Source: Apus apus (lineage: Eukaryota > Chordata > Aves > Apodiformes > Apodidae). Taken from it: a stretch of DNA of 64,000 bases. Made by a program: the position numbers and the translations under genes. The DNA lies in NCBI RefSeq assembly GCF_020740795.1, contig NC_067286.1, positions 37,710,503 through 37,774,502 of the forward strand. The letters run 5' to 3'. Shown piece after piece: positions 13,101-64,000 of the stretch (the first letter of the stretch is position 1; each line of letters opens with the position of its first letter). The notes under the pieces are model-generated. The model was not told where the DNA came from. It ran no database searches and saw nothing but the letters and a program-made list of their open reading frames with translations.

Positions 13101-16100
13101 AAGCATATAGAGTCAACTATTACATTACCTGATGGTCTTCATGTTTTAATAAACTAGACAGTGATTCCACACAGATCTCTAATGAGGAATCCTGAGGCTC
13201 CATTTTGCCACACAGTCTGGATACTACAGCCATAGCCGAATGCAAAGTATCTTTATGAACAAGGTGTCCACTGTCACGAATGAATGTCAGAACACAATTC
13301 AACCCTCCAGCTTCAAACACAGCTCCTGACTCACGGGTACAAATTAATTCTAACACCTATGACAAAACAATATTTTATTAGAATGAAGTATGCATTACAA
13401 GTCAGTTATTTGTTTCTCTCCATCTACAGAACTGGTTAAGAAATTTAACAGCAGAACAAATAAACCCCACTTTCCCCCAACACCCAGCAAGGGTCAAGCC
13501 TCCAGTACTCTAGTAGCCACAGTTTTCTTAAAAAATACAGAAGGGAATTTAAGAACATTCATCAATAGCATGATCATAACAGGTGTTCATGAGAGATAGC
13601 TAGATAATAGCATCTTTTCCTGGGAGAATTGAGTATTTGGATAAAACACAACTGAGAACTCTGAAATTTCCAAGAGTCCTGTTACTCCAGTATTTCAGTG
13701 AATGTACTTCTGAGTAGAATAGAACTGGTAAATAGGAAATGCATTCATAAAGTCTGATGCCATGGTAGCCAAGAACTCAAACTGTATGCTGTCACATGGA
13801 CAGGAGTAATGTTTTAAACAAGATTTTTAAGGAGCTTGTAAATTTTTCTGAAAACTTCAAAATGGTGCAAAGGAGCTGTGTCTAGTGCTACTGAAGAGAC
13901 AGCAGCCAACTCTCTTACAGGATAAACATATATAAAAATATATATGGAGCAATTACATATATATCTGGAGCAATCATATGTATTATATAAGCATATCTGG
14001 ATATATTTGTATAAATATATATATATCATCTTGAGCAATTGTGTATTCCTTTTTAGTGTAAAATTAGCCCTTAGCATTCCAGTAATTTTAGATAAAAAGG
14101 AAAACTTTTGTAATATTTTTGTTTGCTTTTCTGTGCTTTTTTTAAAGGAATCTGAGCTTTGAAGAGCACCAGACTGACAATAAAGACAAGCAGCACTGCT
14201 GGCATGTACACTTTTATAACACACTATATTATAACACACTATGCTTTTGCTTCTCATTTTAATAATATACATAGGTTTATAATATGAGGAAGCTCTTCAG
14301 AAACAGCACATTTTCCAGGTCTTAAAAACAGAAGGTTCTTCAGAATACATACCTTTACACACTGCTCAGCCAAGTCTCTGCTGGTTCTGTTGTTAAGTTC
14401 AACAACGACCAAACGATTACAAAGTGCCTTGATAGCTCCATCCACTCCCACAATCCTACGGGTGCATTCAGCTGATACATCCAGATAATACGTTATGGCA
14501 CGAGCTGTTACTTCTAATACATTGTCTGGAGCACTTTCATCAAGAAAAATTTTGCACAGAGCTGGTAAAAAAGTTCGAGGAGGGCATCTGCAGGAAAAAA
14601 AAACCCACAACAAAACATAACTAAGTTGTGAAAGCTAAGTAATTTCACACAATTTCACATTACGTTTTTCATACTGACATGATCAGTTCAATCGGTTTAT
14701 AGTTGGTTCAGAGCATTCATTTAGAACTCAGACATCTCATACACACTCCATAATTTGAGTCAGAAACCCAAAAAGATGCTGCATTAGGGGAGAAACCAAG
14801 CAGAAAGAAATTTTATTGAAATTTTAAAATTATACTGGGGAAAAAAAAATCTCTTCTCTTGTCAAATTACTTTAGGAAGTAACCTCACATCACAAAACAG
14901 AATACATTTTTTCTTAATACAGCTTCAAGATGATGACCAGCTACTCAACCATGAAATACTACTACTAAAGACTCTGGGTTTGCTATGCAATTTGATTCTC
15001 TGAGTGGTCCTTCTTCCCTATGTTCTTACTTGTATTTTTATCCTAATTAAATTTCTACCTTCCACCTCCTTCTTCTTCCCTAATCACAATGAGAATGTAT
15101 TTAACTCATTTAGCTTGCTTCTATTGCATTTCCTCTTCATATCCATGCTTTGGTAGCCCCTGGCTCTCCTCTTGATTGTTAGCCTTAATTCCATATGCAA
15201 GGAAAGTCAAGAACATTCCCTCAATTTCTTAACAGCACAAGCAAGCTGCAACAGTCCTTATTCTATCTATCTAAGTTAATAGGATACAAACTAAAATGGA
15301 TGGTCATAATAATGCTTTTCATTATTACAGCAGTTGTGGTTGAAACTGATTTGGATCAAAAGTTCTAAAACATGGAGCTGTAATTTAATGTAATTTATCT
15401 TCCAATAGCATGCATAATTATCAATAAATAACTTTGTATCATGGTTGTTCACTGCAGTGGTAGAAGACTTCCAAGGTGGTGGTGGTGAATTAAGTGAAGG
15501 GGATATAGGCTGTGACAGTAATTGAAATAACTGGATATCCTTAGATGCAGGGGATCAGAACTAAAGCTACAGGAGGCAAATACTGCATTTTTTTCTTAAA
15601 CGAGTTTTAATCTGCAAAAGAAGGCCTAAAATTTTTCCAAATTGAAAGAGAAAGAACAAAAATAATAGCACAGATTTTGGTCTGGAAGACAGGTGAAGTA
15701 CTTGCTGATTAATCATTCTGAAGACTAACCCAGAGGTCATGCAGTATCCCATCTGGCACACACTGTGACTCATACCAAGGCACAAAACCCTGGGACAGGA
15801 AAATGCTAATAGTTTCCTTGAAGATCTGGCTACGCTCTAGGAAATAATTAGATAATACTACCTGTCAAATAAATACGTTACCCAATGATCCTTTGCATAA
15901 CTCAATTAAGGTAATCTTCAATAAAGCAAAATCACTTATTTAATACTTATATTAGCCTGCCCAGCCTATACTGTCTGCTGTTCTTATGAAATTTGCTATT
16001 TAACTCCACACCTTCCTCAAAAAGAGTACACAGTAACTTGGCATTTTAAAGACATTGTCCACTGGAGGAAAAAAAACAGTCTGCAATTCATACTTATTAT

Positions 16101-28100: not shown

Positions 28101-30568
28101 TTTAGTTACATTCTCTCAGCATATGACAGTTTTGGCTACTTGGACTGTTCTTTGAAAGATTTTAAAAATACTTCAAGATATCACCTATTTCTTACAGAGA
28201 ATTTCAAAATAAAGTCACCCTGAAATGCAGGCTGTGATACTACAGACATCCAAGACAATCAAGCCACTGAGAAGTTCTCCATTGAAGAGCATATAGCTTT
28301 CTCTGCTTCTCCCTTATTTCCACCTCCATGCAGTTCCACCTCCAGTGTTCATGAGCCACCCCTATAATCTACTGTAATTCACTGTAACAGCAGAAAAACA
28401 GCCAGTTTCTTCAGCGGGTTTAAAAAGCAGCTTGTTCTTTTACTGAATTAGAGGAGTCCAGTAAGCCCTGACACTGGCATGAACCAAGAATAAGGTTGTG
28501 AGGAATAAAAATGGAGAGTGACAAATGGACGTAGCAGCTTTCCCTTTTGAAGGTAATGAGCTACCATGTCAGCTCACCGAACACAACGGAACAGTATCTT
28601 CAGTGTATTCACAGTACCAGTTAAACAGAAGTTTTAACTTGAATGCAAAATCACCCGAAGAGGCAGGTAACCTTGATAACTTTTTCCCAGTTTACACTTT
28701 TATTTTCTTTAGCTTGTCTTTGAGGGAAGCTTACAACAGCAAAAAAGAGCAACAATTTAAAAGACCCATAAAATTAAATTATACCAAGGCCTAAAAAAAA
28801 AAAAAAAAGCCAAATGGTATTTTAAATGTTTCTTCTTTCAGACATAAAAACTAATTTTAAAACCACAACACTGCAATAGAGCATTCATTAGCTGTATTTT
28901 AAGAAAAAAAGCACTTGAACTAGTTAATTAATTTATATTGAGATGAAAGTCTGCTCTAAATAAAATGCATAAAACCCACAATTGATTTATATTTTTAAAG
29001 CTGACATTTCATTCCTAATTCTCAAATGCCCCGATAGCCTTATAAATGGTTATGCCCAAACTCTACTTCTGTTCTGTACTGAATATACTGAAGCAGGAAG
29101 TTCACCTAGATTTGTCTGAAAAATTCATTATTAACTATCAGATTATTTTCGACAGTAGTAAACTACGAAGTCAGCAAAGCAGGTTTTCTGAGGCTAACAT
29201 AGTGCTCCACCAGTACCAGTACTATGAAGGACTGATAGGGAAGTTGAATGCATCTCTCTCCAGTACATCTCTTTTCAAGACAAAATTTTACCTGAAAGCT
29301 CGTCAAGGCCAAAATCAGGCAATTTCAAATTCTAAACTAGCGTACAAAACTCTGCTTATGCCTATGTGGCTACTCCAAACACAAATTTTGCAGATGTATG
29401 AATTTCACACTTTCTGTAATGGCAGCAGTTGTTAACCATGAACAGCTTTTAAGAAATAAGCCTGAAAACTATTCTCTTCTTCAGGGCTGCAAAACTAAAC
29501 ATTGTAACAAACAGCTACCTTCTTAAATGCTCCTAAACCCATTCTGCCAAGAACCGGGATGTAGAAAGACACTAGTCACAGTTTGAGTTGTCAAAGAAAG
29601 GAAATTGAGAATAATGAAAAAAAGATGGAAGAGCATCAAAATAAGAACTGGGGAAACAAACAAGCAAATAATCACAAAATTTTTTTAAACACCAAAAATT
29701 ATGTAAGAGATGTCAGATTTAAAAGTTGTGAGTATTTACACTTTTGCTACCTTGTTCCATACTACTTGTGAGCCCTCACAGGAGGCAGTGTAACACATGC
29801 ACAGCAACACTATTAAGTAACAGAAGCAGTTACATCAGCACCAGGTGCTGTGAGAAACATAAAAAGGAGTGAGCAGGCCTTATGCTATAGGAAGTGTAGA
29901 AATGCAGTTGAGAAGGAGGGTGGCATGAACAGAAACATTCTTCAAAGAAGGGGCAAAATATTTCTGTGAACAGTGGTTTATATTTCTGATTTTTGTTTGG
30001 ATTTACAGAGTTCAGGAAAAGCTACTATATCTCTTGAGAAAAGTGTTCCGAGAGTATGGATGTCTAAATATACCCAGGTCATCATTACAGTTACAATGTA
30101 AAAAGTTTTTCCTGCCATTAAAAAACACCTAGATGTAACAAAAAAACCCCATCACTTCCACATTGCAACTCTGAATACATTTCTTTAAATGAAACCGTCA
30201 GATCTTGTGTCAGAAGGGACACTGCAGGTCACTCACAGGACACCACAATTTTTAATCAGACAACAGTCTTTCACACACCATGAACAGAAACACATCATTT
30301 CAGTACCTACACAAGTTCAGTCTGTAAAAACATTTTTGAGGCTGAAAGTTTCTAGGAATGTTAAACACTATGTACAGCTACTGAGAGAGGAAAATAACAC
30401 TCCATACACGAAAGCTAAAACTACTTACGTTTCAAAACAGCGATCCACGTTGTCTGACATCAGAAGTAGCATGCACAGCTGCTCCAGTGCTATCAGCTGC
30501 ATATCCCTTTCATCTCCCTGCCCCATCTGCAGCCATTCCAGCAACGTGTCTGGGTCCACATCTGCCAT
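1034..30568 (-). CDS. HECTD1: HECTD1, N-terminal third (14 coding exons; gene continues off the left edge)
   Basis: HECTD1 is a HECT-type E3 ubiquitin ligase. In mammals it is known to ubiquitinate targets such as APC and HSP90 and is needed for neural tube closure. Here the coding exons 30429-30568, 14353-14587, 13129-13356, 9970-10251, 9446-9716, 9046-9122, 8863-8961, 8393-8507, 7649-7823, 6095-6233, 5722-5892, 4495-4717, 1228-1491 and 1034-1110 join without phase breaks into 2,496 nt (832 codons). The product matches vertebrate HECTD1 almost residue for residue as I remember it. In order it holds an N-terminal helical (ARM-like) region, about residues 1-385, ankyrin repeats at about 390-490, an acidic stretch at about 630-650, and a conserved region with the [18 protein letters not shown] motif near 690. 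The C-terminal HECT domain lies outside the window, so this is a partial gene and not a broken one. I see no internal stop or frameshift. Confidence 0.97.
1228..1491 (-). CDS. HECTD1: HECTD1 exon 14
   Basis: This 264-nt exon lies between acceptor TTAAATAG|AAAGTAG and donor TCTTTGG|GTAAGT. It encodes [20 protein letters not shown], a Ser/Thr/Pro linker, then [20 protein letters not shown] through SFTAETSL. The phase matches the following 77-nt exon exactly, with a split Gly codon. Confidence 0.96.
1492..4494 (-). other. HECTD1 intron 13 (3.0 kb)
   Basis: This is AT-rich intron, especially at 2,200-2,400 and 2,640-2,760. I see no exon, mobile element or structured RNA in it. Confidence 0.75.
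4495..4717 (-). CDS. HECTD1: HECTD1 exon 13
   Basis: This 223-nt exon lies between acceptor TTACAG|GAGGAT and donor GTTCAG|GTAGTT. It encodes [20 protein letters not shown], then [20 protein letters not shown] and on to [13 protein letters not shown]. The Trp- and Gly-rich central segment looks like a beta-rich domain; I cannot name the fold from sequence alone. A long A/C-rich plus-strand tract (T/G-rich in the transcript) begins just upstream of the acceptor. Confidence 0.96.
4718..5721 (-). other. HECTD1 intron 12 with CR1 remnant
   Basis: This 1.0-kb intron contains an A/C-rich plus-strand tract at about 4,735-4,815, just upstream of the exon 13 acceptor on the transcript (T/G-rich there). 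It also holds the CR1 3' remnant at 5,030-5,150 and a second A/C-rich tract at 5,155-5,235. Confidence 0.75.
5030..5150 (-). mobile_element. CR1 LINE 3' end fragment in a HECTD1 intron
   Basis: Read on the plus strand, ATGGTTGAGGTTGGAAG, CAGGCAGAGTCACCTAGAG and CTCAGGACCATGTTCAGAC match the reverse complement of a CR1 3' end, so the element lies on the minus strand. It is the only copy here oriented like its host gene. An A/C-rich tract follows directly on the right (about 5155-5235). Confidence 0.75.
5722..5892 (-). CDS. HECTD1: HECTD1 exon 12 (acidic region)
   Basis: This 171-nt exon (57 codons, phase 0 at both ends) lies between acceptor ATTACAG|GATGAT and donor GAGAAG|GTAAGT. It starts [20 protein letters not shown] and ends [14 protein letters not shown]. 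The acidic Ser/Asp/Glu tail is continued by EDEPQED of the next exon and forms a charged linker, a plausible phosphorylation target (inference). Confidence 0.96.
6095..6233 (-). CDS. HECTD1: HECTD1 exon 11
   Basis: This 139-nt exon lies between acceptor TTTAAAG|GAAAGC and donor CAAGAG|GTAGGA. It encodes [20 protein letters not shown] through ITATVLDQE. Human HECTD1 has Val where this sequence has Ala in CDSDAGHN, as I recall the human protein. The helical pattern continues the ARM-like fold. Confidence 0.95.
7649..7823 (-). CDS. HECTD1: HECTD1 exon 10
   Basis: This 175-nt exon lies between acceptor GTTCCAG|GGGACT and donor TATAAG|GTAGTA. It encodes [20 protein letters not shown], a Lys/Glu-rich linker, then [20 protein letters not shown] and on to MLPSI. 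The basic-acidic linker follows the ankyrin block. It ends two bases into an Arg codon. Confidence 0.95.
8393..8507 (-). CDS. HECTD1: HECTD1 exon 9 (ankyrin repeat)
   Basis: This 115-nt exon encodes [38 protein letters not shown]. The [19 protein letters not shown] core is a textbook ankyrin repeat. The acceptor is TTCTCAG|ACTCTC and the donor CTCCAG|GTGAGT. It ends one base into a Gly codon that exon 10 completes. Confidence 0.96.
8863..8961 (-). CDS. HECTD1: HECTD1 exon 8 (ankyrin repeat)
   Basis: This 99-nt exon (33 codons, phase 0 at both ends) encodes [33 protein letters not shown]. The RGADVN and S-x-L-H-Y-A-A motifs are classic ankyrin repeat residues, and the exon is one repeat long. 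The acceptor is TTAACAG|GTAGAA and the donor GCAAAG|GTAGGA. An 84-bp intron separates it from exon 7. Confidence 0.95.
9046..9122 (-). CDS. HECTD1: HECTD1 exon 7 (ankyrin repeat)
   Basis: This 77-nt exon encodes [20 protein letters not shown] and GTQEM. The V-N-x-x-D-x-x-G-x-T-x-L-x-x-A pattern is that of an ankyrin repeat. The acceptor is TTTCAG|CATTTG and the donor GAAATG|GTAAAT. It enters two bases short of a codon boundary and leaves in phase 0, so skipping it would shift the frame. Confidence 0.95.
9446..9716 (-). CDS. HECTD1: HECTD1 exon 6
   Basis: This 271-nt exon lies between acceptor TTTCCAG|GATCTC and donor CAGGAG|GTAAGC. It encodes about residues 296-385, from [19 protein letters not shown] to [10 protein letters not shown]. 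It leads directly into the ankyrin block and ends one base into the next codon. Confidence 0.96.
9970..10251 (-). CDS. HECTD1: HECTD1 exon 5
   Basis: This 282-nt exon (94 codons, phase 0 at both ends) lies between acceptor TTCTTAG|GTTTCAG and donor ACACAT|GTAAGA. It encodes [20 protein letters not shown] through [10 protein letters not shown] Ser/Gly/Ala/Pro-rich linker in its middle, around [19 protein letters not shown], is probably disordered and separates helical repeats. Confidence 0.96.
10252..13128 (-). other. HECTD1 intron 4 (2.9 kb)
   Basis: This intron holds an (AAAC)n microsatellite at about 11,140-11,169 and a G-rich patch at 12,404-12,470. No exon or mobile element was recognised. 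Confidence 0.8.
11140..11169. repeat. (AAAC)n microsatellite
   Basis: About seven consecutive AAAC units lie in a HECTD1 intron, inside a looser A/C-rich run that continues to about 11,190. Confidence 0.9.
13129..13356 (-). CDS. HECTD1: HECTD1 exon 4
   Basis: This 228-nt exon (76 codons, phase 0 at both ends) lies between acceptor TCATAG|GTGTTAG and donor CATCAG|GTAATG. It starts [18 protein letters not shown] and ends LLKHEDHQ. It belongs to the N-terminal helical-repeat region. Because it is symmetrical, skipping it would keep the frame. Confidence 0.96.
13357..14352 (-). other. HECTD1 intron 3 with AT-rich tandem repeats
   Basis: This 996-bp intron includes a degenerate AT-rich array at 13,926-14,040, in which TATATAT blocks alternate with GGAGCAAT or TGAGCAAT. 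It also includes a 15-bp tandem duplication, TTATAACACACTATA, at 14,214-14,242 (the second copy is one base short). Confidence 0.8.
14353..14587 (-). CDS. HECTD1: HECTD1 exon 3
   Basis: This 235-nt exon runs from acceptor CTGCAG|ATGCCC to donor GTAAAG|GTATGT. It encodes residues 47-125, starting [20 protein letters not shown] and ending DLAEQCVK, a helical ARM-like segment of the N-terminal region. One base completes codon 47 and the exon ends in phase 0. A 15.8-kb intron separates it from the start-codon exon. Confidence 0.96.
14588..30428 (-). other. HECTD1 intron 2 (15.8 kb)
   Basis: This is the largest intron in the window. I found no exon-like sequence with a recognised product in it. 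It contains the CR1 fragment near 20.9 kb, a T/G-rich tract at 17,097-17,180, a C11 run at 25,707-25,717 and an imperfect duplication at 21,583-21,666. A somewhat GC-richer patch at 22,570-22,740 has no assignable identity. The rest is AT-rich single-copy-looking DNA. Confidence 0.85.
20855..21080 (+). mobile_element. CR1 LINE fragment in the large HECTD1 intron
   Basis: A central piece of the CR1 3' half is recognisable by GCAGCCCAAAAGGCCAAC, CATCCTGGGGTGCATCAAA, GGGAGGTGATTCTACTC and CACCTGGAGTACTGCTTCC. It is degraded, lacks the 3' tail, and is antisense to HECTD1. The outer limits are approximate. Confidence 0.85.
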
Positions 30569-30712: not shown

Positions 30713-32953
30713 CTGCAAAAGTAAAAAAAAAAATAAAAAAATTATCACAAACTTGCCTCAACTTTTTTTATTTACTCCTCTCTAAAATATACAGCATATT
30801 TTTGGGTTGACATTAATAAAGCACATATTTAACCAGCAATTTTTTTAATCAAGCTTTATAGATGAATAAACAGTAATGAGTTTGTTCTGTTTCACTGGAA
30901 ATAAATCTCTAGTTCCAGCTGACAATCAAGCAAGATTTAGAGCCTACTCTTATTTACAGGATAACTCAAAAAAGAAAATTAGAAAACCTGTGTTTACACT
31001 TTTGTATATTATCAAGGCTAATATAAAGACAAACAGTGCTCCTGCCTAACCCCTTTCCTTTAGTATCACTGTATAATGAAGTGTCCAACTTCCTGAACGA
31101 TTAATTACCTCCTGACTAAAGCATTGTGACATCAAACGTCATGTTTTAAACACAAACCCACAAAACAAAAATCCTGAGATACATAACTAAAGACTTGGAA
31201 AATATCTGTAAATGTTTTATTAATCCTTTGTTTTTTAATATAGCTTTTGAACATAAGGAAAACAAGCTTTTTAAGTAAAAAAAAAAAAAATAATAAAAAC
31301 AATTTAAGAATCACTTCCATTTTCAAGGGTTTTGTTAGGGTGTTTTCAGAAAAAAAGTATCTACATCATAGCTTTAAAAAAATGCAGTGAATAATTCAAA
31401 TAATTCATGTACATATAAGGAAAACAACATTATTTGTTGGCTCAATGCCATAGTTGTACACGCAAGCTGAAGACCAAAAAAGTCCCTTTAAAATGTTAAG
31501 AGGTATTTTTGACCTATGTACTTGCTTTTTACTTTATGTTTTACTAACAAATAGTGAAATTCACCCCCCATGCTTAAGAACACAACAAGCATGACTATTT
31601 TCATATACAAACTAAATCAAAGGTTACAAACCAAACTCTCCAAGTTAAACATTCAAGGAAAAAAAAAAAAACAAACTATTTCTTAAATATAGCTCTTAAA
31701 AAATAATTAGTTTACCAAATTCACACATAAATATTAAATGCTGGACAGTGTCCCTACAAACTGGCGGGGATGCAGGGAAGAAGCTCAATCTGGACAAAGT
31801 CTGCCTACTTGTTTACTTGCTGTTAATGAGTTAATAGTTAAAAAATAACTCCATCAAGGGCACAGATAAAAAAGTGAATCAGAAATTGGTATTACATGGA
31901 GAAATGTACACTGAACCAGCAGTACTGTTTCACAACAGCTTTGAACTCAAAGATAGGATAAAACAGAAATAGGACTGATAGGATTATTTTATAGTTTAAA
32001 ACTACAACGACATTACAGATCACTCAATTACTGCTTGCCATTTTTATGGTTTTTTTGTTATTACTGCAGTCCTGCTGTAAAAACTAATTCAAATGTTACT
32101 AAAATCATGATCCGTGCTTTAAACAACGCCTATGATCCTCTGTGCTGTTTACAGACTGCATTTCCTTCTCCAAGACTAAATAAAACTACTTTCAGCCAGT
32201 ACAAGTGGGATCGTACTGTAAGTATAGTACGTCTCCTTAACGAGACTAAATTATTAACTTCGGGGAAGCGGGGGGGAGGCGTGAGGAGTGCGGGAGAAGG
32301 GGGGAAGGAAGGGTGAAGGCAACAGAAACAAGAAAATTAAGGGAGGCAGTGAAAGTGGGGTAAGTCAATACAGACACCTGCTGTTCTTCCACCCCAGACA
32401 GGCTCTAACTAGACGGAAACGAACCACCGAGCAGAAAACAGAGCAGGGCGAGCGCCCGAGGCTCCCAGGAGAGCCGCTCCAGAAAAGGGGCCAGGCCGCA
32501 GCTGAACTCATCCCCCACCGCCGGGCCTACGCACAGACACGCCAGAGGGGCCCGGGCCAGCGCGGGGATTCGGGGCCCCCTCCCCACACCCGCCCCACCA
32601 GGGAAGGGGAGCCCTCGCGCCGCCTCCCCGCCCCTCGGCGCCCCCGCGCAGGCGAGTCAGCGGCGCTTGGGGCTCTCCGGCAGCACCGCCTCGCTCTGCC
32701 CCCCGGCCCCCACGCCGAGATGTTCCGGCACCCGCCGCCGCCGCCCCCTCCAGGGCCCCGGCCCGCAGCGGGGCCCGCCGGTCCGCTCCTTCCGGGCCTG
32801 CCAACACCGACCCGCCAGGCCCGGGCAGCGACGCTCGAGTTCCTGGCGAGCCGCAGGCCTCGCAGGGTGACCCGGCCTGGCGGCTCAGGAAAGGCGCCGT
32901 CTCCCGAGCGCCCGCAGAAGCGGCCCCGCACCCTCCCCGCCTCCGCCGCTCAC
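30713..32953 (-). other. HECTD1 intron 1 (5' UTR intron)
   Basis: This 2.2-kb interval lies between the probable non-coding exon 1 and the start-codon exon. The left part is AT-rich with several oligo(A) runs, and from about 32.26 kb rightward it enters the CpG island. No other gene is seen. Confidence 0.6.
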
Positions 32954-33600
32954 CTCGGCCTCTCGGAACCTCTTCGCCGGAGCCGACCCCCCCCCCTCAG
33001 CGCCGCGGGGAGACAGGGGGAGAGGCGCGGAGACGGCGGCGGCAGCCCCAGCCCCGCAGCAGGCGGCAGCCAGCGGCACCCATGGCGCTCCGCCCAGCGC
33101 GGGACGGAGGGGGAGGGGCAGCGAGCGGCGCCGCGGCCCGGGGGGCGGAGCTGTCGCTGCCCGAGCGGCCGCTGGGGGCGCTGCGGGAGCCGCGCGGGCG
33201 CCGCCGCCTCCGCGGGCTGAGCCCGCCCTGCGCAGGCGGCTCCGCGGGGCGGGGCAGCGCGGCGGCGGCTCCCGCTGCGCCCGGCGCCGCTGCCGGCTTC
33301 CCGGGGAGAGCGCGGCCCTGCGCTTCCGTGCCCGCCTCCGGGGGCGGGGGCTGGGGGCGCCGACCCGAGCGCTACCCTGGGGCGCGGTGTCGGACCCAGC
33401 TCGAAGCCTTCCGCCCGAGGGGAGGCTGTGGCGCGGCTCCGCGCCCCGCAAGGGCCTCCTCGGCCCGGGGCCCGCCTCGGGAGCGGGGCCCGGGGCCCCA
33501 GGGCTCCCAACCACCCTCCACGGGGAGGAGCGGGAGTCGAGGCCTGCCCAGCGTGTCTTCCCGCTCCCCCCAGGCTTGGGAGGCCTTGTCATTCTATTTC
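32260..33600. promoter_or_regulatory. CpG island at the 5' end of HECTD1
   Basis: GC content rises sharply from the AT-rich surroundings and CpG is dense for about 1.3 kb. Many GGCGGG/CCCGCC (Sp1/KLF-type) boxes are present, and both strands have long stop-poor frames simply because of base composition. The position matches the HECTD1 5' end. Such islands often also fire a divergent non-coding transcript, here toward the right, but nothing in the sequence proves one. Confidence 0.85.
32954..33080 (-). promoter_or_regulatory. HECTD1: HECTD1 probable non-coding exon 1 and core promoter
   Basis: On the minus strand a strong donor, GGCCGAG|GTGAGC, lies at 32953 inside the CpG island. It is the best partner for the acceptor of the start-codon exon at 30712, giving a 2.2-kb first intron. 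There is no TATA box, as expected for a CpG-island promoter. The transcription start is not visible, so the upper limit of the exon (about 33.08 kb) is a guess. Mammalian HECTD1 also has a non-coding first exon, as I recall. Confidence 0.6.
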
Positions 33601-33852
33601 CTGCCGTATTCTGGTTATTTATTTTAATCTATTATTCTTTACAGAGAGGGGGTTATACCTTGCAGGGCCCACGCTTGAGAGCACTTGGATCCACCTCCAG
33701 CACCTCCCTCGAAGTGGAACGGATTTAAATGTTGCAGTAATGGGTCTGTCAGAGCTGCGGGTTGGACTCGCCCTTCCCCTCTCCTGGGCTAGAGCTGTGG
33801 CAGCGACGCTGCAGCTTGAGGCGCGTGTTGCGAGGGAGCAGCAGCAGCAGCT

Positions 33853-34488
33853 GCCTGCCTGCCTCCCTGCCTGCCTCCCTGCCTCCCTGCCTGCCTCCCT
33901 GCCTGCCTCCCTGCCTGCCTCCCTGCCTGCCTCCCTGCCTGCCTCCCTGCCTGCCTCCCTGCCTGCCTGCCTGCCTGCCTCCCTGCCTGCCTGCCTGCCT
34001 CCCTGCCTGCCTGCCTCCCTGCCTGCCTGCCTCCCTGCCTGCCTCCCTGCCTGCCTGCCTCCCTCCCTGCCTGCCTCCCTCCCTGCCTGCCTGCCTCCCT
34101 GCCTGCCTCCCTGCCTGCCTCCCTGCCTGCCTGCCTGCCTCCCTCCCTGCCTGCCTCCCTCCCTGCCTGCCTCCCTCCCTGCCTGCCTCCCTCCCTGCCT
34201 GCCTCCCTCCCTGCCTGCCTGCCTCCCTGCCTGCCTGCCTCCCTGCCTGCCTCCCTCCCTCCCTGCCTCCCTCCCTGCCTGCCTCCCTGCCTGCCTGCCT
34301 CCCTCCCTCCCTGCCTCCCTCCCTGCCTCCCTCCCTGCCTGCCTGCCTCCCTGCCTGCCTGCCTCCCTGCCTGCCTGCCTCCCTGCCTCCCTGCCTGCCT
34401 GCCTCCCTGCCTCCCTGCCTCCCTGCCTGCCTGCCTCCCTCCCTCCCTGCCTCCCTGCCTCCCTGCCTCCCTGCCTGCCTGCCTGCCT
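33853..34488. repeat. (G/C)CCT tetranucleotide tandem repeat, 159 units
   Basis: Read on the plus strand, the tract is 159 consecutive four-base units. Each is GCCT or CCCT, with no insertion, deletion or other substitution. I counted 100 GCCT and 59 CCCT units. The G/C choice is not random along the tract: five copies of a 12-bp block (GGC order) fill 33901-33960, and a 16-bp GGCC order repeats at about 34133-34212. All six frames are open (Pro-Ala-Cys-Leu-like or Gln-Ala-Gly-Arg-like), which gives long false reading frames. It lies about 0.8 kb upstream of the HECTD1 first exon. Confidence 0.97.
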
Positions 34489-37400
34489 GCCGCACGTGCT
34501 GCCAAAGGCACCTGATGGGAAAACAAAGGAAGCAAACTCTGCTATATGTTAGAAACTAAGGACTGAAAGGACTTTACAGCAAGCGACTGTAAAGTTAAAT
34601 TGAAGGACTAAAAGCAAAAGATCTTCAAAATAGTTTCCTTCTCTGCAAGATGACATGCATTTTTCTAAGGAATTTAAGCCTATTAATATAAGTACAGTAA
34701 ATAAGATTATTGTACATTCATATGTCACTCCTACGTACCTCACAGACATTTCCTGTAATTAGGAGGCTAAAACTACACACTGGAGAAAAAGGCAGTAGTA
34801 GTCATTATCAGTTAAAACTTGCCAAATGCAGAAAATTTTATTGTTTGGTGCTGTAATAACACCTCTAGAAAGTGTCATCTTTATTACTGTCAGTTTTTTT
34901 TTTTCCAGAATACAAGAACAGTACCTTCGTCTCTATTTCTGATTTCTAATGCAGCTTAGCCCTTCAGTCTTACAGCATTACGTCTCTCCAGGGCCACTTC
35001 TTCCAACCCTGCTGAGATTTACATGTATATCCTTTGTCTATGCTTGCCCTTCAGAGGTCAGCAAGACTTCTTGTATGCTTAAAGTTAAGGGCATGAGGCA
35101 TTAGGAAGACTGAGTCTGCAGTCTTTAAATTTAGAAGTTTGATCTTCTTTCACTTTCACTGGTGCAGAAGCAGCAGCAGAATTAGGCCAAACATGCGAGA
35201 ACAGCATCTGCTAAGTGACCTAGCACCTGTTGCACTGTGCTAGAACAGGTTCCTTTGCATTTTCTTGTGAAGAGAGGTTTTAATTAAAGCAATATTATGA
35301 AGACCAAAGCCACTTACTAATTTTCAATTGTAAAGACAAAAAACTTTGAAATCAAGCATTTCAATCTTTTCACGTAGTCTGCAGTTTCTGGTTCAGGTAT
35401 CATTGGACGAATACATGGCTGTCCATGGAGAAGATGAGGTTTTCAAAATACAGATCAATTTAGGAAAAAATCCAAATGTGTAAATATTGTACACATAAGG
35501 AATACAAGTTGGGGATTTTAAATACTGTTAAGTAGGAGTACAACACTTATTTAGAAATGGATAAACACAAATACTTCCACGCCCTGTTGCATTAATTGAC
35601 AAATTTGATATATCCTATATATTTATTTATTTTTTACATTAAAGGAAGTGTGTCAATTTAGTGATGAATCAGGATTTTTTTCATTGTGATAATTTGTAAT
35701 ATTTAAGAGTTTGCTAGTGATTTTTGTTCCTCATTAGGAGTTTTTCCCCAGAATGAATTTGAAAAAGAAGAAATTATCTACTGACTAGATAATCTCTGCT
35801 TTATTGGTTGTGTTCTTCTTACAATATAATGTTCAAGGTCTGATTAATACTTTTTCCACTTCGTGTGCTGGTTGGGCATTCAGATTATTTTCAGCAGTTG
35901 TCAGAGAGTACTCCATTGAAACATATCACAGCAAGTGACACCCCTCAAGTTGCTGTTTCAGACTCCCTCTGTGTGCAGCACCAATACAGATTAGGACTGC
36001 CTCTTCAAAGGTGCCTGCTCTCTAACAATTAATAAGAAGGAAATCATTAGCAAATAAGACTGCAGTTAGCAGATAAGAAAGATGTAAGAATTGCATCAGT
36101 CATTTTTTATGGAGTTACTTGCTTTCATTTGAATTTTCACATGAAGTTTTGTTCAGACCCCCAAATTTCCAGGCTATGGCTCTCACGTGGTTAGTGCTTG
36201 GCCTCAGCGTAGTGAGGAAGAAGGACTTTGTGTGGATTAGTGCAGCCAGATGGGGAAGGCAAGTAAGGCCGTACACTTGAAGTGACAGGTGATGGCTCTT
36301 GACTCTCATAGTTACCTTGAACAAAAACATGCTGAGCATTCTGTGAAACTTGCAAAGCCAACTGCAGTTCCCCATATTTGTACATATTGTTCATTCAGTT
36401 AGAAAATGGCCTAAATTCTAACACCAGCTGACACATTCTTCATGTATGACCTTGCCCTAATCCCTTAATTACTGAATGTCTCTGTTTCCTCCTTTATAAA
36501 AAAACCAAGATACTAATGCTGGAGTCAGAAATGTCATGGCGTTTATGGAATTGTGAGTTGCTGAGGCATGCTACTCTAGTAAGTCTTAAATAATACTATG
36601 AAACAGAATTTCTCTTTATGACTACGCTTCAGCAAATCACACGTGACTGAGGATGCTTTTGGAATTTAGGTCACAGAGGGTCAACATAGATTGACCTTTG
36701 TAGCATGTGATATTGACCAATGACCAGCGCTTTTGCTGGGTATTTACCTGAAAATTAAAACTTGGCTTTAAAAGAGAAAACGTCAGTACAATTACTGGCC
36801 TGCTGTCAGGGACACATGAAACACAGAGAAACATGCCATGGAGGGTAGCGAGGGTCAGGGACTGGGGCGTTGCAGATGCAGAGAGCTGGTGAGACACGCT
36901 ATAAAGCACACCTCTCTTGGGACAGCTCCTCCTTAGCAAGACACTGCGGGTGTTCTCAAGAGTTTGATTCTGTTTGAAAAGAAGTCATGTTTGGCTAGAA
37001 TTTTGCAAAATCTTGGGATGGAAAAAAAAGGTCATTTTTTTTTTCCACTTATAGCTCAAAAAAACTCCATATTTATTACTGCTCTTGTATTATATTCGTG
37101 CTTGTGTTTTCTATATGTTTTTAGCTGACAGCAGAAGGAAATATCTGTCATGGGTTCTGTTGATGTCGCATAGTAAAGATTGTAATCTTCAGATAGGAAT
37201 GACTGGGCTTTTGTTACAGAAAATAGAAAACTCTGGCCAAAAATCAAACAGAAACACACCTACAATTCAAACAAAATAAGAAGTCTCACTTTCCTCTGTA
37301 TATTTTTAATTGATACAGAAGCTAGAACCTAGTATAATTGATGTTTTGTTAGCTGTACTTCCAACCTCTGTACACATGCCAAGTTGATGTTCCAAAAATA

Positions 37401-40400
37401 CCACTCCTCTCCAGTACATACATCAGAGGGTGACATAAACAGACCTGAACACCTCCACAAATTTAATTGAGTAGTTTCTGCTAAAGGGCAGTGCTGTGCC
37501 CAGCCAAACAAGACAGGGCTTTTACAGATGATTTATCCTTTTGCTTTAACCATTTTTTCTCTGCCAGCCACATAATAATGTAGTGGAAAACACTGAGAGT
37601 TCCTGCTCCTCCAGAAACAAAATGTGAATAGTTCCATACACATTTAATTTTCTAGATTAATATTCTACTGGTAAAGAAAAGTTAATAAATGTTGACTATG
37701 CATTTTAAAGCAAGGCAGTCAAGTATTACAGACACCTCCTTGCTGTATCAGACAAGGTTCAGTTTTACAGAATTTAGCAATTTAAACTTATGTACTTCTT
37801 AAGCATATTGTTAAAAATCTGTTATTCTAGAAAAGTTACTTTTCAATACATAAAATGCCCTTGGTAAAAGCTTTTTTTAATTTAAATCCTCCTATGTTAT
37901 CGTGATCTCTTCTTAGCCACGCCACTGTTGCACAAACCTCGGGAGCCCAAACACGATGTCAGCGTCTGGACTTTCCAGAAGTCTGTGCCAGCTTTGCAGC
38001 CCTGGCGGTGGCCAAGCCGCGCTGCCTGCGCGCTGCCTGCGCGCTGCTTGCGCCCCGCAGCCTTGCGCCGTCTGCCGCAGCGGGCGCGGTGGGACAGGCG
38101 GCCTCTGTGGCAGTCCCGGTGTCGCAACGGCACACGTGGATGTGGTGAGCACATAGCTAAAGCTGAGGTGATAGATGTGCGAGTTGGCAAGCTGGTGGTT
38201 ATGGAGGCACAGAGCTGAGTCACTGCTCTTCTTGTTAAACTCCTCCTCAGGAGGGTGACAGCTTCCCGGAAGGTTCTCATCCTCAGAGCTGAGTGAATGA
38301 ACGTGAAAATCTACAAAAGAGCATGGTATTCAGAAACCTGCCAATGCTCCAAATCTACCTTTTCTTCTGTCTGAAATTATCATTCAAAATCTCATAAATT
38401 AAAGTGGTTTTTATTAAGTCCACTCACCTATGTGGGAGTTTCTTGTTAGATTTTATTTTTGAAGTAGAAGTTTAGCTTTCTGGTGTTCCAGGCTGGGCAG
38501 TGAGAAGTGGGTAAACTGTGTATCACTGAACTCCTTTTACCTTAGTTACCCTCAGCTCTATCGGTTGTTTGGACATTAAATAGAAAGTAACCTGTCATCG
38601 CAGGCTGCCCTCACTGATGTTCCTTACTCGTCTGATTGCCAAAGAGAAATGAGGCAGTAATTAGGCAACAGTTATCTATTTCAGGCTGTACCCTGTCCAC
38701 CAGTAACATAGGGAACAGCAGCAAATCTCAATCCAAGACAAGCACAAAGAAAAATGAGTGACTCAGATCACAGTGTTTCCTACGGTTTTTAATGTCACTG
38801 ACTAGGTTATAACTTCCTGAATCAGAAGATTAATCAAGATCTAGCATTTGTTGCTCCTTCTTATTGTGGGAGTAAACCACATGTAATCCTGCCAGGCATC
38901 TGATGTGGCTCCCAAAATTTCAGTTAAGTATTACAAATGTTGATGAGAAGACTTAGTGTGTCTTGATCACCAAATTATTCTTCTGTATTCTGGGATTAAA
39001 AAAACCCAGCTACTTAGAGTTTTATTGAAAAGAGTGCAAATTTTTCAGACTTAAAAGCTCACTAATGACTTTTAGTGTTCTTCTAATGAAATTATGCCTT
39101 ATTCACCGCTGTTGAATGTCTTGACATGCAAAAAGAAGAAACAGTCTCAGGCTCCTAAAACCTGATTTTCTGGATTAGTTGCTAACTGGAAAGAGCTACA
39201 TCCTTCATTCAAACCAAGATAAACGAACCAAGCATTATGCTGCAGCACAACAAAGCTCAGTGCTAGCACTGTGCATGGAGACAGACAACAAAAAATGGTG
39301 TTGATTACTAATGTAAGAGGAAAACTTTCTTGCCCCACTGGTAGCGTTTAGGGAAAATGGGAAAGCACTGTAATTCACTAATGGTTTGCTCTTTCAGAAA
39401 GGTTATCTGTGCCCTCTGCAAGCTCAATTAAGCCTTGCATTGTTTGGTTTGTAGGAAAGATGCCATTAAACAACTGAAATCCTTCTCAGAAGCGATGAAA
39501 TTACTTAGAATTGTAGTAGTGAGATAAAACCAGGTTTCTGCAGATCCTCAAGTCTATATTCCTGCAAGGGAAGAATACACATTTCTTAAGGAATATATTA
39601 CAAGTAGTAAACTGTGTACCTGATTTCCTCTTAATTAGTTTTATTAATAAATAAAGATCACATTGTGCATGTGTTGGGATTGGTCCTTCACTGTAACCTT
39701 TGGACTTATCCCAAGCTACAAACTACATTAAATAGCACTGGCTGAAACTGGGAAAATTATTTTGTGAAGAGATAAGAAGGAATTTTAATTTCAACGAAGG
39801 ACTTTAAGTTTCAACAGGGCTGATTTTCATTCTTTGCCCATTGCTAGTGAATGCCATAAATTATGCTGAAGGGTTTCCTTCTGCTTTCTTAGCTTTGGTT
39901 TTCGTTTTGCTACTCATTTTTTTTAACTTCCTTAACACAAATATTTTTTAAAATAGCAAAAATAACGCCCAAAGCTCAGAGCCTTGAAATTTATTCTGTT
40001 ATGTTGAATATAAGGAAAAGGATGAGAAATGCAACCCTTCCCAGGACATGAAAAACAAATCAGTATATTTCTGGTTAGAAAATACATTGGAAGATGCAGA
40101 CTTTGGATGAGAAACTCACGTCTTGACTGCACTTATACTAGCCTGTACTTGATTAAATAGCACCTTTAGCAGAAGAAAAAAAAATGGCTATACAGTGTTG
40201 AAGGCTCAAAACATTACCCTTGCTCACTACATTTCAAAGTGTGACCTAGGCCAGTTAAAGAGGATCCTTTTGATCTGATAGTAGAGAGCTTTGTGGCAGA
40301 GCTGCACGTTTATAGGAGAAGTGGCCATAAGAGACAACTGGTATAGATACTAGGTTTTTATAGATATCATTTGCCTAGGAGCTTTAAGTTAATTATCTAG

Positions 40401-50208: not shown

Positions 50209-51055
50209 AGGACGGGGAGGCTCTAGAGAGAGACTTGGATAGATTAGATTGTTGGGCTAATGTTAATGGTGTGGGCTTCAACAAGGTCAAGTGCCGGGTC
50301 CTGCACTTGGGCCACAACAACCCCATGCAATGCTACAGGCTTGGGGAAGTGTGGCTGGAAAGTGTCTGGCAGAAAAGGACCTGGGGGTTCTCATTGACAA
50401 GGGGCTGAATATGAGCCAGCAGTGTGCCCAGGTGGCCAAGAAAGCCAATGGCATCCTGTTCTGTATTAGAAATAGTGTGACCAGCAGAAGTAGAGAGGTG
50501 ATTGTCCCCCTGTACTCAGCACTGGTGAGGCCACACCTGGAGTATTGTGTCCGGTTTTGGGAGCCTCAATTCAAGAGAGATATCGAGGTGCTGGAGAGAG
50601 TGCAGAGGAGGGCAACAAAGCTGGTGAAGGGCCTAGAGAATAAACCTTATGAAGAACACTTGAAGGAGCTGGGAATGTTTAATTTGAGAAAGAGGAGGCT
50701 GAGGGAAGACCTCATCAGTCTCTACAACTACCTGAAAGGACGTTGTAGAGAGGTTGGTGCTGGTCTCTTTGCACAGGTAATTAGCGACAGAACAAGAGGG
50801 AATGGCTTCAAGCTGCAACAGGAGAGGTTTAGACTGGACATTAGGAAAAACATTTTCACAGAAAGAGTGGTCAGACACTGGAATAGGCTGCCCAGGGAGG
50901 TGGTTGAGTCACCACCCCTGGATGTGTTTAAGAGTCATTTGGATGTGGTGTGGTGGATATGGTTTAGGGGAGAACTTTGTAGAGCAGGGATGATGGTTGG
51001 ACTCAGTGATCCCAAGGGTCTTTTCCAACCTGAATAGTTCTATGATTCTATGATA
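50209..51055 (+). mobile_element. CR1 LINE, 5'-truncated, with long open reverse-transcriptase frame
   Basis: The 3' part of a CR1 non-LTR retrotransposon lies between HEATR5A and HECTD1. A 248-codon plus-strand frame at 50291-51037 contains the conserved C-terminal ORF2 blocks [40 protein letters not shown] and [13 protein letters not shown]. The element ends in GTTCTATGATTCTATGA, the CR1 3' tail. Lack of stops over almost the whole element suggests a younger insertion than the other copies here. The endonuclease domain and most of the reverse transcriptase domain are missing, so it cannot move on its own. Confidence 0.92.

Positions 51056-53500: not shown

Positions 53501-64000
<10,500 letters not shown>

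Follow-up and report, generated by a model that had tools for sequence, protein, structure and literature searches.

A putative non-coding (G/C)CCT VNTR, probably expanded in multi-unit blocks, upstream of the presumed HECTD1 promoter of Apus apus

The window analyzed here, a stretch of 64,000 nucleotides of the Apus apus genome (contig NC_067286.1, positions 37,710,503 to 37,774,502 of the forward strand), includes, both on the minus strand, the 5′ part of HECTD1 and, upstream of it, HEATR5A, in the gene order known from human. Between the HECTD1 CpG island and HEATR5A lies a long tetranucleotide array. Coordinates are those of the window, and the main features are as follows:

30479..30568, minus strand: segment of what is presumably the first HECTD1 coding exon, seen in translation, its assignment based on the human N-terminus
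32201..33600 (about 32.2-33.6 kb), minus strand: CpG island and presumed HECTD1 promoter, CpG o/e 0.64-0.96 in 200-bp bins
33853..34488, no strand given: (G/C)CCT array of 159 units; its minus strand reads AGGC/AGGG
60383-60793, minus strand: HEATR5A exon, Pfam HEAT_HEATR5A, E 3.3e-32

The minus-strand frame at 30479-30568 is what we take to be the N-terminus of HECTD1. The frame at 14260-14634 matched the Pfam family TPR_TRIP12_N with an E of 2.2e-8, slightly above the cut-off, a match that would be compatible with HECTD1 and is no proof of it; five more presumed HECTD1 exon frames had no Pfam match, and two exons, including that at 14257-14634, had none among solved structures in a search up to E 1. 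Three further presumed HEATR5A exon frames gave two weak Pfam matches below the cut-off and, for the third, no match; weaker candidates for further HEATR5A exons occur at 53504-57471. The mapping of CpG o/e confirmed that the array is placed upstream of the HECTD1 CpG island, as the original prediction had it: the array starts about 250 bp past the island, on the side facing away from HECTD1. The distance of 0.8 kb from the promoter, which had also been proposed, is a fair estimate and no more. Outside the CpG island and the array, the GC content of the window is 30-41%. The whole window gave no RNA family in Rfam at the gathering threshold, and three frames that presumably represent ends of a CR1 LINE reverse transcriptase, which they resemble (50267-51034, 54573-54842 and 57794-58138), had no match in Pfam.

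The array consists of 159 (G/C)CCT units, for a total of 636 bp, with G at the variable base in 100 units and C in 59; coordinates, unit counts and perfect 4-bp phase are all reproduced as first described. It contains no indels and no other substitutions: the 477 constant positions are without any change, corresponding to a divergence below about 0.63% (rule of three, the copies not being independent), and the variable position uses only two of the four bases. The intact constant positions support the view, already put forward, of a recent expansion or homogenization. Tandem Repeats Finder reported a single array with a period of 16 and 40.6 copies. The array is devoid of CpG, its longest pure CCTG run is of five units, and a second run of at least four (G/C)CCT units was found on neither strand in the whole window. 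Four CAG units abut its left edge, at 33839-33850.

The order of the two unit types in the array is non-random. When the array was read as a G/C string and matched with itself at 40 lags against 5000 shuffles, an excess of matches was observed at 4, 8, 12, 16, 20, 24 and 28 units (z 2.6 to 4.2) and a deficit at 1, 2, 7 and 10 units (z -2.0 to -3.5); the lag-4 match was 0.671, compared with 0.530 in the shuffles (z 3.75), and z was 4.21 at lag 12, 3.86 at lag 20 and -3.18 at lag 2. Five periods were tested for spectral power: the period of four units had a p of 0.0005 against 2000 shuffles and of at most 0.007 against Markov models of orders 1-3, the third-order value being 0.007; the power at 2, 3, 5 and 8 units fell short of 0.05 against shuffles.

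Near repeats are in excess over every null tried: exact repeats of at least 10 units lying no more than 12 units apart number nine, against means of 1.7 in shuffles and of 1.7-2.7 in Markov strings (p≤0.005). At 13-40 units there are eight repeats against a shuffle mean of 2.7, a figure above first-order (p 0.015) and not above second- and third-order Markov strings, and beyond 40 units there are nine against 4.9, a number compatible with every Markov model tried (p 0.105 to 0.585). Long-range block copies, for which the 14-unit repeat at 34053/34181 and other dispersed repeats were candidates, were rejected on these grounds. The longest repeated string, of 19 units, is modestly unusual, with a p of 0.018 against shuffles and of 0.044, 0.145 and 0.279 against Markov models of order 1, 3 and 4, respectively. 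Markov models of order 2-3 suffice to account for this string and for the more distant repeats, a point against block copying.

The longest internal repeats are two tandem blocks, GGC and GGCC, both recognized earlier. The GGC block has six copies at 33889-33960, in place of the five originally placed at 33901-33960, whereas the position of the GGCC block at 34133-34212 was confirmed, with five copies. Local registers are distributed along the array as follows:

33889..33960: sub-array GGC x6, 12-bp register
33961..34132: middle part, GGGC and GGCC mixed, mainly 16-bp register
34133..34212: sub-array GGCC x5, 16-bp register
34365..34488: right end, with frequent unit alternation, registers of 2, 4, 6 and 8 units fitting about equally well

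Thus, the 3-unit register is confined to the left end, and the remainder of the array follows mostly a 4-unit register.

Comparator arrays that follow the degenerate pattern for 20 units or more were examined at all 37 fetched loci, 6 of them in viral and 31 in prokaryote contigs. Pure GCCT made up 35 of them and the other two carried one C unit at an edge, indicating that a mixed order is not inherent to the motif; these arrays, of 20 to 34 units, are far shorter than 159 units and come from unrelated, non-bird genomes that are uninformative on homology, and several sit at the extreme end of their locus and may be artefacts. The exact 36-base pattern of the GGC phase had no match in the viral contigs.

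The perfect 4-bp phase agrees with a plain tetranucleotide microsatellite, grown by single-unit slippage and subsequently diversified by G/C point changes; however, such a process makes neighboring units alike, whereas lag-1 and lag-2 matching in the array are below chance. Nine models with fixed block sizes were simulated, with 700 runs each, and compared with the observed lag-1 and lag-4 values. With single-unit events the lag-1 excess averaged +0.225, whereas the array has -0.078, and in up to 700 runs none was as low as the array; point changes limited to G/C at one position also seem improbable, and this origin is very unlikely. Both values were reproduced by 38% of the runs with 4-unit blocks and 39% of those with 4- and 8-unit blocks, by 6% with 3- and 4-unit blocks, by 0.3% with block sizes uniform from 1 to 8, and not once by the other five models.

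A second simulation left the weights of blocks of 1-8 units free, with a prior of 0.125 (320,348 runs, 314,462 kept). Among the 628 runs that fitted best, the mean weight was 0.309 for blocks of four units, 0.296 for eight and 0.089 for one; these values derive from summary statistics of a single allele (lags 1-12 and composition), and the weight on eight may represent larger multiples, as blocks above eight units lie outside the simulation. Weights and quality of fit were similar with unit flips, with conversion and with neither of them (50,486, 46,987 and 52,666 runs kept, respectively). Since the fit is equally good with conversion and without it, replication slippage and repair copying are indistinguishable from these data, and the equal fit of the model with neither process indicates that mutation after the founder is unnecessary. 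The proposal that blocks of 12 or 16 bp had been duplicated holds, on the basis of the simulations, for multi-unit blocks in general, but 16 or 32 bp dominates and 12 bp is mainly a matter of the left end.

The array is best read as a young block-expanded VNTR of an already known kind, that is, an ordinary type of sequence. Its units are near-identical and arranged head to tail, as in VNTRs, and a periodicity above the unit (four units) is present, as in block repeats, homogeneous only locally. More specifically, we give a probability of about 0.7 to a putative non-coding VNTR that derived from a mixed CCTG/CCTC founder by duplication and loss of 4- or 8-unit blocks, with a local 12-bp phase on the left. 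A founder that already contained both unit types is suggested by the absence of substitutions from the constant positions and by the use of two bases out of four at the variable one. This short founder would then have grown mainly as blocks of 16 or 32 bp were duplicated and lost, the left end passing through a 12-bp phase of its own, and the blocks may have been copied by misaligned repair synthesis or by replication slippage. The two-type code itself would curb single-unit slippage and favor multi-unit steps, because misalignment by one unit mispairs 54% of units, misalignment by four or eight mispairs 33%, and locally a 4-unit shift mispairs nothing. In vitro, a single interruption is reported to reduce polymerase slippage errors 5- to 50-fold, and interrupted repeats to be less mutable (PMC4102424). 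For CCTG in yeast, large contractions are described as occurring via break repair, with a modest, two-fold dependence on Rad51/Rad52, and slippage as expected to yield deletions of 1 to 3 units (PMC10849350). The array is likely polymorphic in length and represents a good candidate for length variation; for HECTD1, any such variation upstream of the CpG island would most probably be neutral.

Avian tandem repeats rich in GC are difficult to sequence (PMC6792250), and the array could have been collapsed, expanded or made chimeric during assembly; this is unlikely, as the window holds no N, and perfect phase combined with a structured unit order would be atypical of read error. That the array is a protein-coding repeat can scarcely be credited: all six frames are open across it, giving long ORFs, but this is explained by units that form no stop codon, and the one frame tested, at 33752-34555 on the minus strand, had no Pfam match, so that a coding reading was rejected.

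It is decidedly unlikely that the array is a functional structure former, either a minus-strand quadruplex or a CCUG-type RNA, retained by selection upstream of HECTD1. The array lies close to the CpG island, and its minus strand has a mean G4Hunter value of 1.31, with values of at least 1.2 in 70% and of at least 1.5 in 12% of the 25-nt windows, as well as 25 starts of quadruplex motifs when loops of up to 12 are allowed, a count without a control. However, selection for quadruplexes should appear as an order that enriches G4 motifs over shuffles, and the starts of G3 motifs with loops of 1-7 are nine, three of them non-overlapping in 636 bp; unit shuffles give 12.3 (sd 3.7), which puts the array within chance. 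Folded as DNA, the minus strand has a z of -9.6 against dinucleotide shuffles, none of 20 being as good; this value is due to the 4-nt phase and not to unit order, since half of the unit shuffles (20 of 40) give an equal or better fold, as do 36 of 40 for the plus strand. As RNA, unit shuffles are at least as good in 8 of 25 cases for the plus and 18 of 25 for the minus strand, and the plus strand has a z of 0.75 against dinucleotide shuffles, with 17 of 20 as good. Neither the quadruplex nor the hairpin reading, then, rises above unit shuffles, and both were rejected; these tests of order cannot address selection on composition or length. The quadruplex potential proposed initially proved weak, its only support coming from composition.

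Among the known repeat systems, mouse ESTRs such as Ms6-hm and Hm-2 resemble the array in being long homogeneous runs of very short GC-rich units. ESTRs are homogeneous arrays of at least 0.5 kb with a unit of 4-9 bp, a structure that the array shares, with 636 bp and a 4-bp unit, and the unit of Hm-2, GGCA, is a rotation of AGGC; the array differs in having two unit types in block order, and the likeness is one of sequence only. Human MSY1, whose repeat unit is longer than 4 bp, provides a second parallel. Germline mutation is frequent in mouse ESTRs, control mice having 0.03 to 0.07 mutant bands per band (PMC3419097), and an origin from MaLR LTRs is listed for Ms6-hm and Hm-2 (PMC9659126). 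In MSY1 and other GC-rich minisatellites, as in the array, an internal map of unit types records block changes, and the proposed mechanism is gene conversion by synthesis-dependent strand annealing; the MSY1 allele has large single-type blocks and length steps of 1-3 repeats (PMC2599865), whereas in the array the 4-bp unit types are interspersed.

The array shares its CCTG units with the (CCTG)n repeat of CNBP in myotonic dystrophy type 2 (DM2). Normal CNBP alleles are interrupted in eight of nine cases, by GCTG and TCTG, and seven of nine expanded alleles of DM2 patients also carry TCTG blocks; TCTG, the second unit, follows hundreds to thousands of CCTG as a single block at the 3′-end (PMC9462847). 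In the array, on the contrary, the second unit is CCTC and is interspersed, and the long uninterrupted CCTG run typical of DM2 is lacking, no run exceeding five units; moreover, the CNBP repeat is intronic and the array lies upstream of a gene. Because of the C units, the predicted RNA folding energy of the plus strand is about one third of that of a pure array (-52 vs -156 kcal/mol), and that of the minus strand somewhat less than half (-138 vs -319 kcal/mol). The analogy with CNBP that had been drawn is thus weak. Avian non-coding GC-rich tandem repeats are likewise short, with a G-rich strand, and occur in bird genes, but they are described for GC-rich genes missing from assemblies (PMC6792250), whereas the surroundings of the array have the GC content of 30-41% given above. 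The motifs AGGG, AGGC and CCTG are absent from the main text of two avian microsatellite surveys (PMC9951716, PMC4725869), and a review on repeat function mentions CCTG in the context of DM2 (PMC10027321); in the open-licence PMC literature, no title or abstract start among the matches listed concerns this array.

An indel-free tetranucleotide array with a two-letter code represents a legible history of block duplication. Birds lack PRDM9, and an association of recombination with CpG islands and regulatory regions has been described in the blackcap (PMC10781513). If birds, lacking PRDM9, recombine at CpG-island promoters, arrays flanking promoters might be recurrently rewritten by meiotic break repair, the string of units being the record and the two-type code enforcing 16-bp steps, since over half of the units are mispaired when the shift is a single unit; this wider reading is speculative and rather improbable. 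If the order of units varies among individual birds, it would provide a direct test of break repair moving 16-bp blocks near promoters in PRDM9-less genomes.

A short second CpG-rich patch is present in the window at 37900-38310, where one frame per strand gave no Pfam match; at 38001-38200 its GC content is 69% and its CpG o/e 0.91, and it includes a small array of an 11-bp unit, CGCGCTGCCTG, repeated 3.3 times at 38018-38053.
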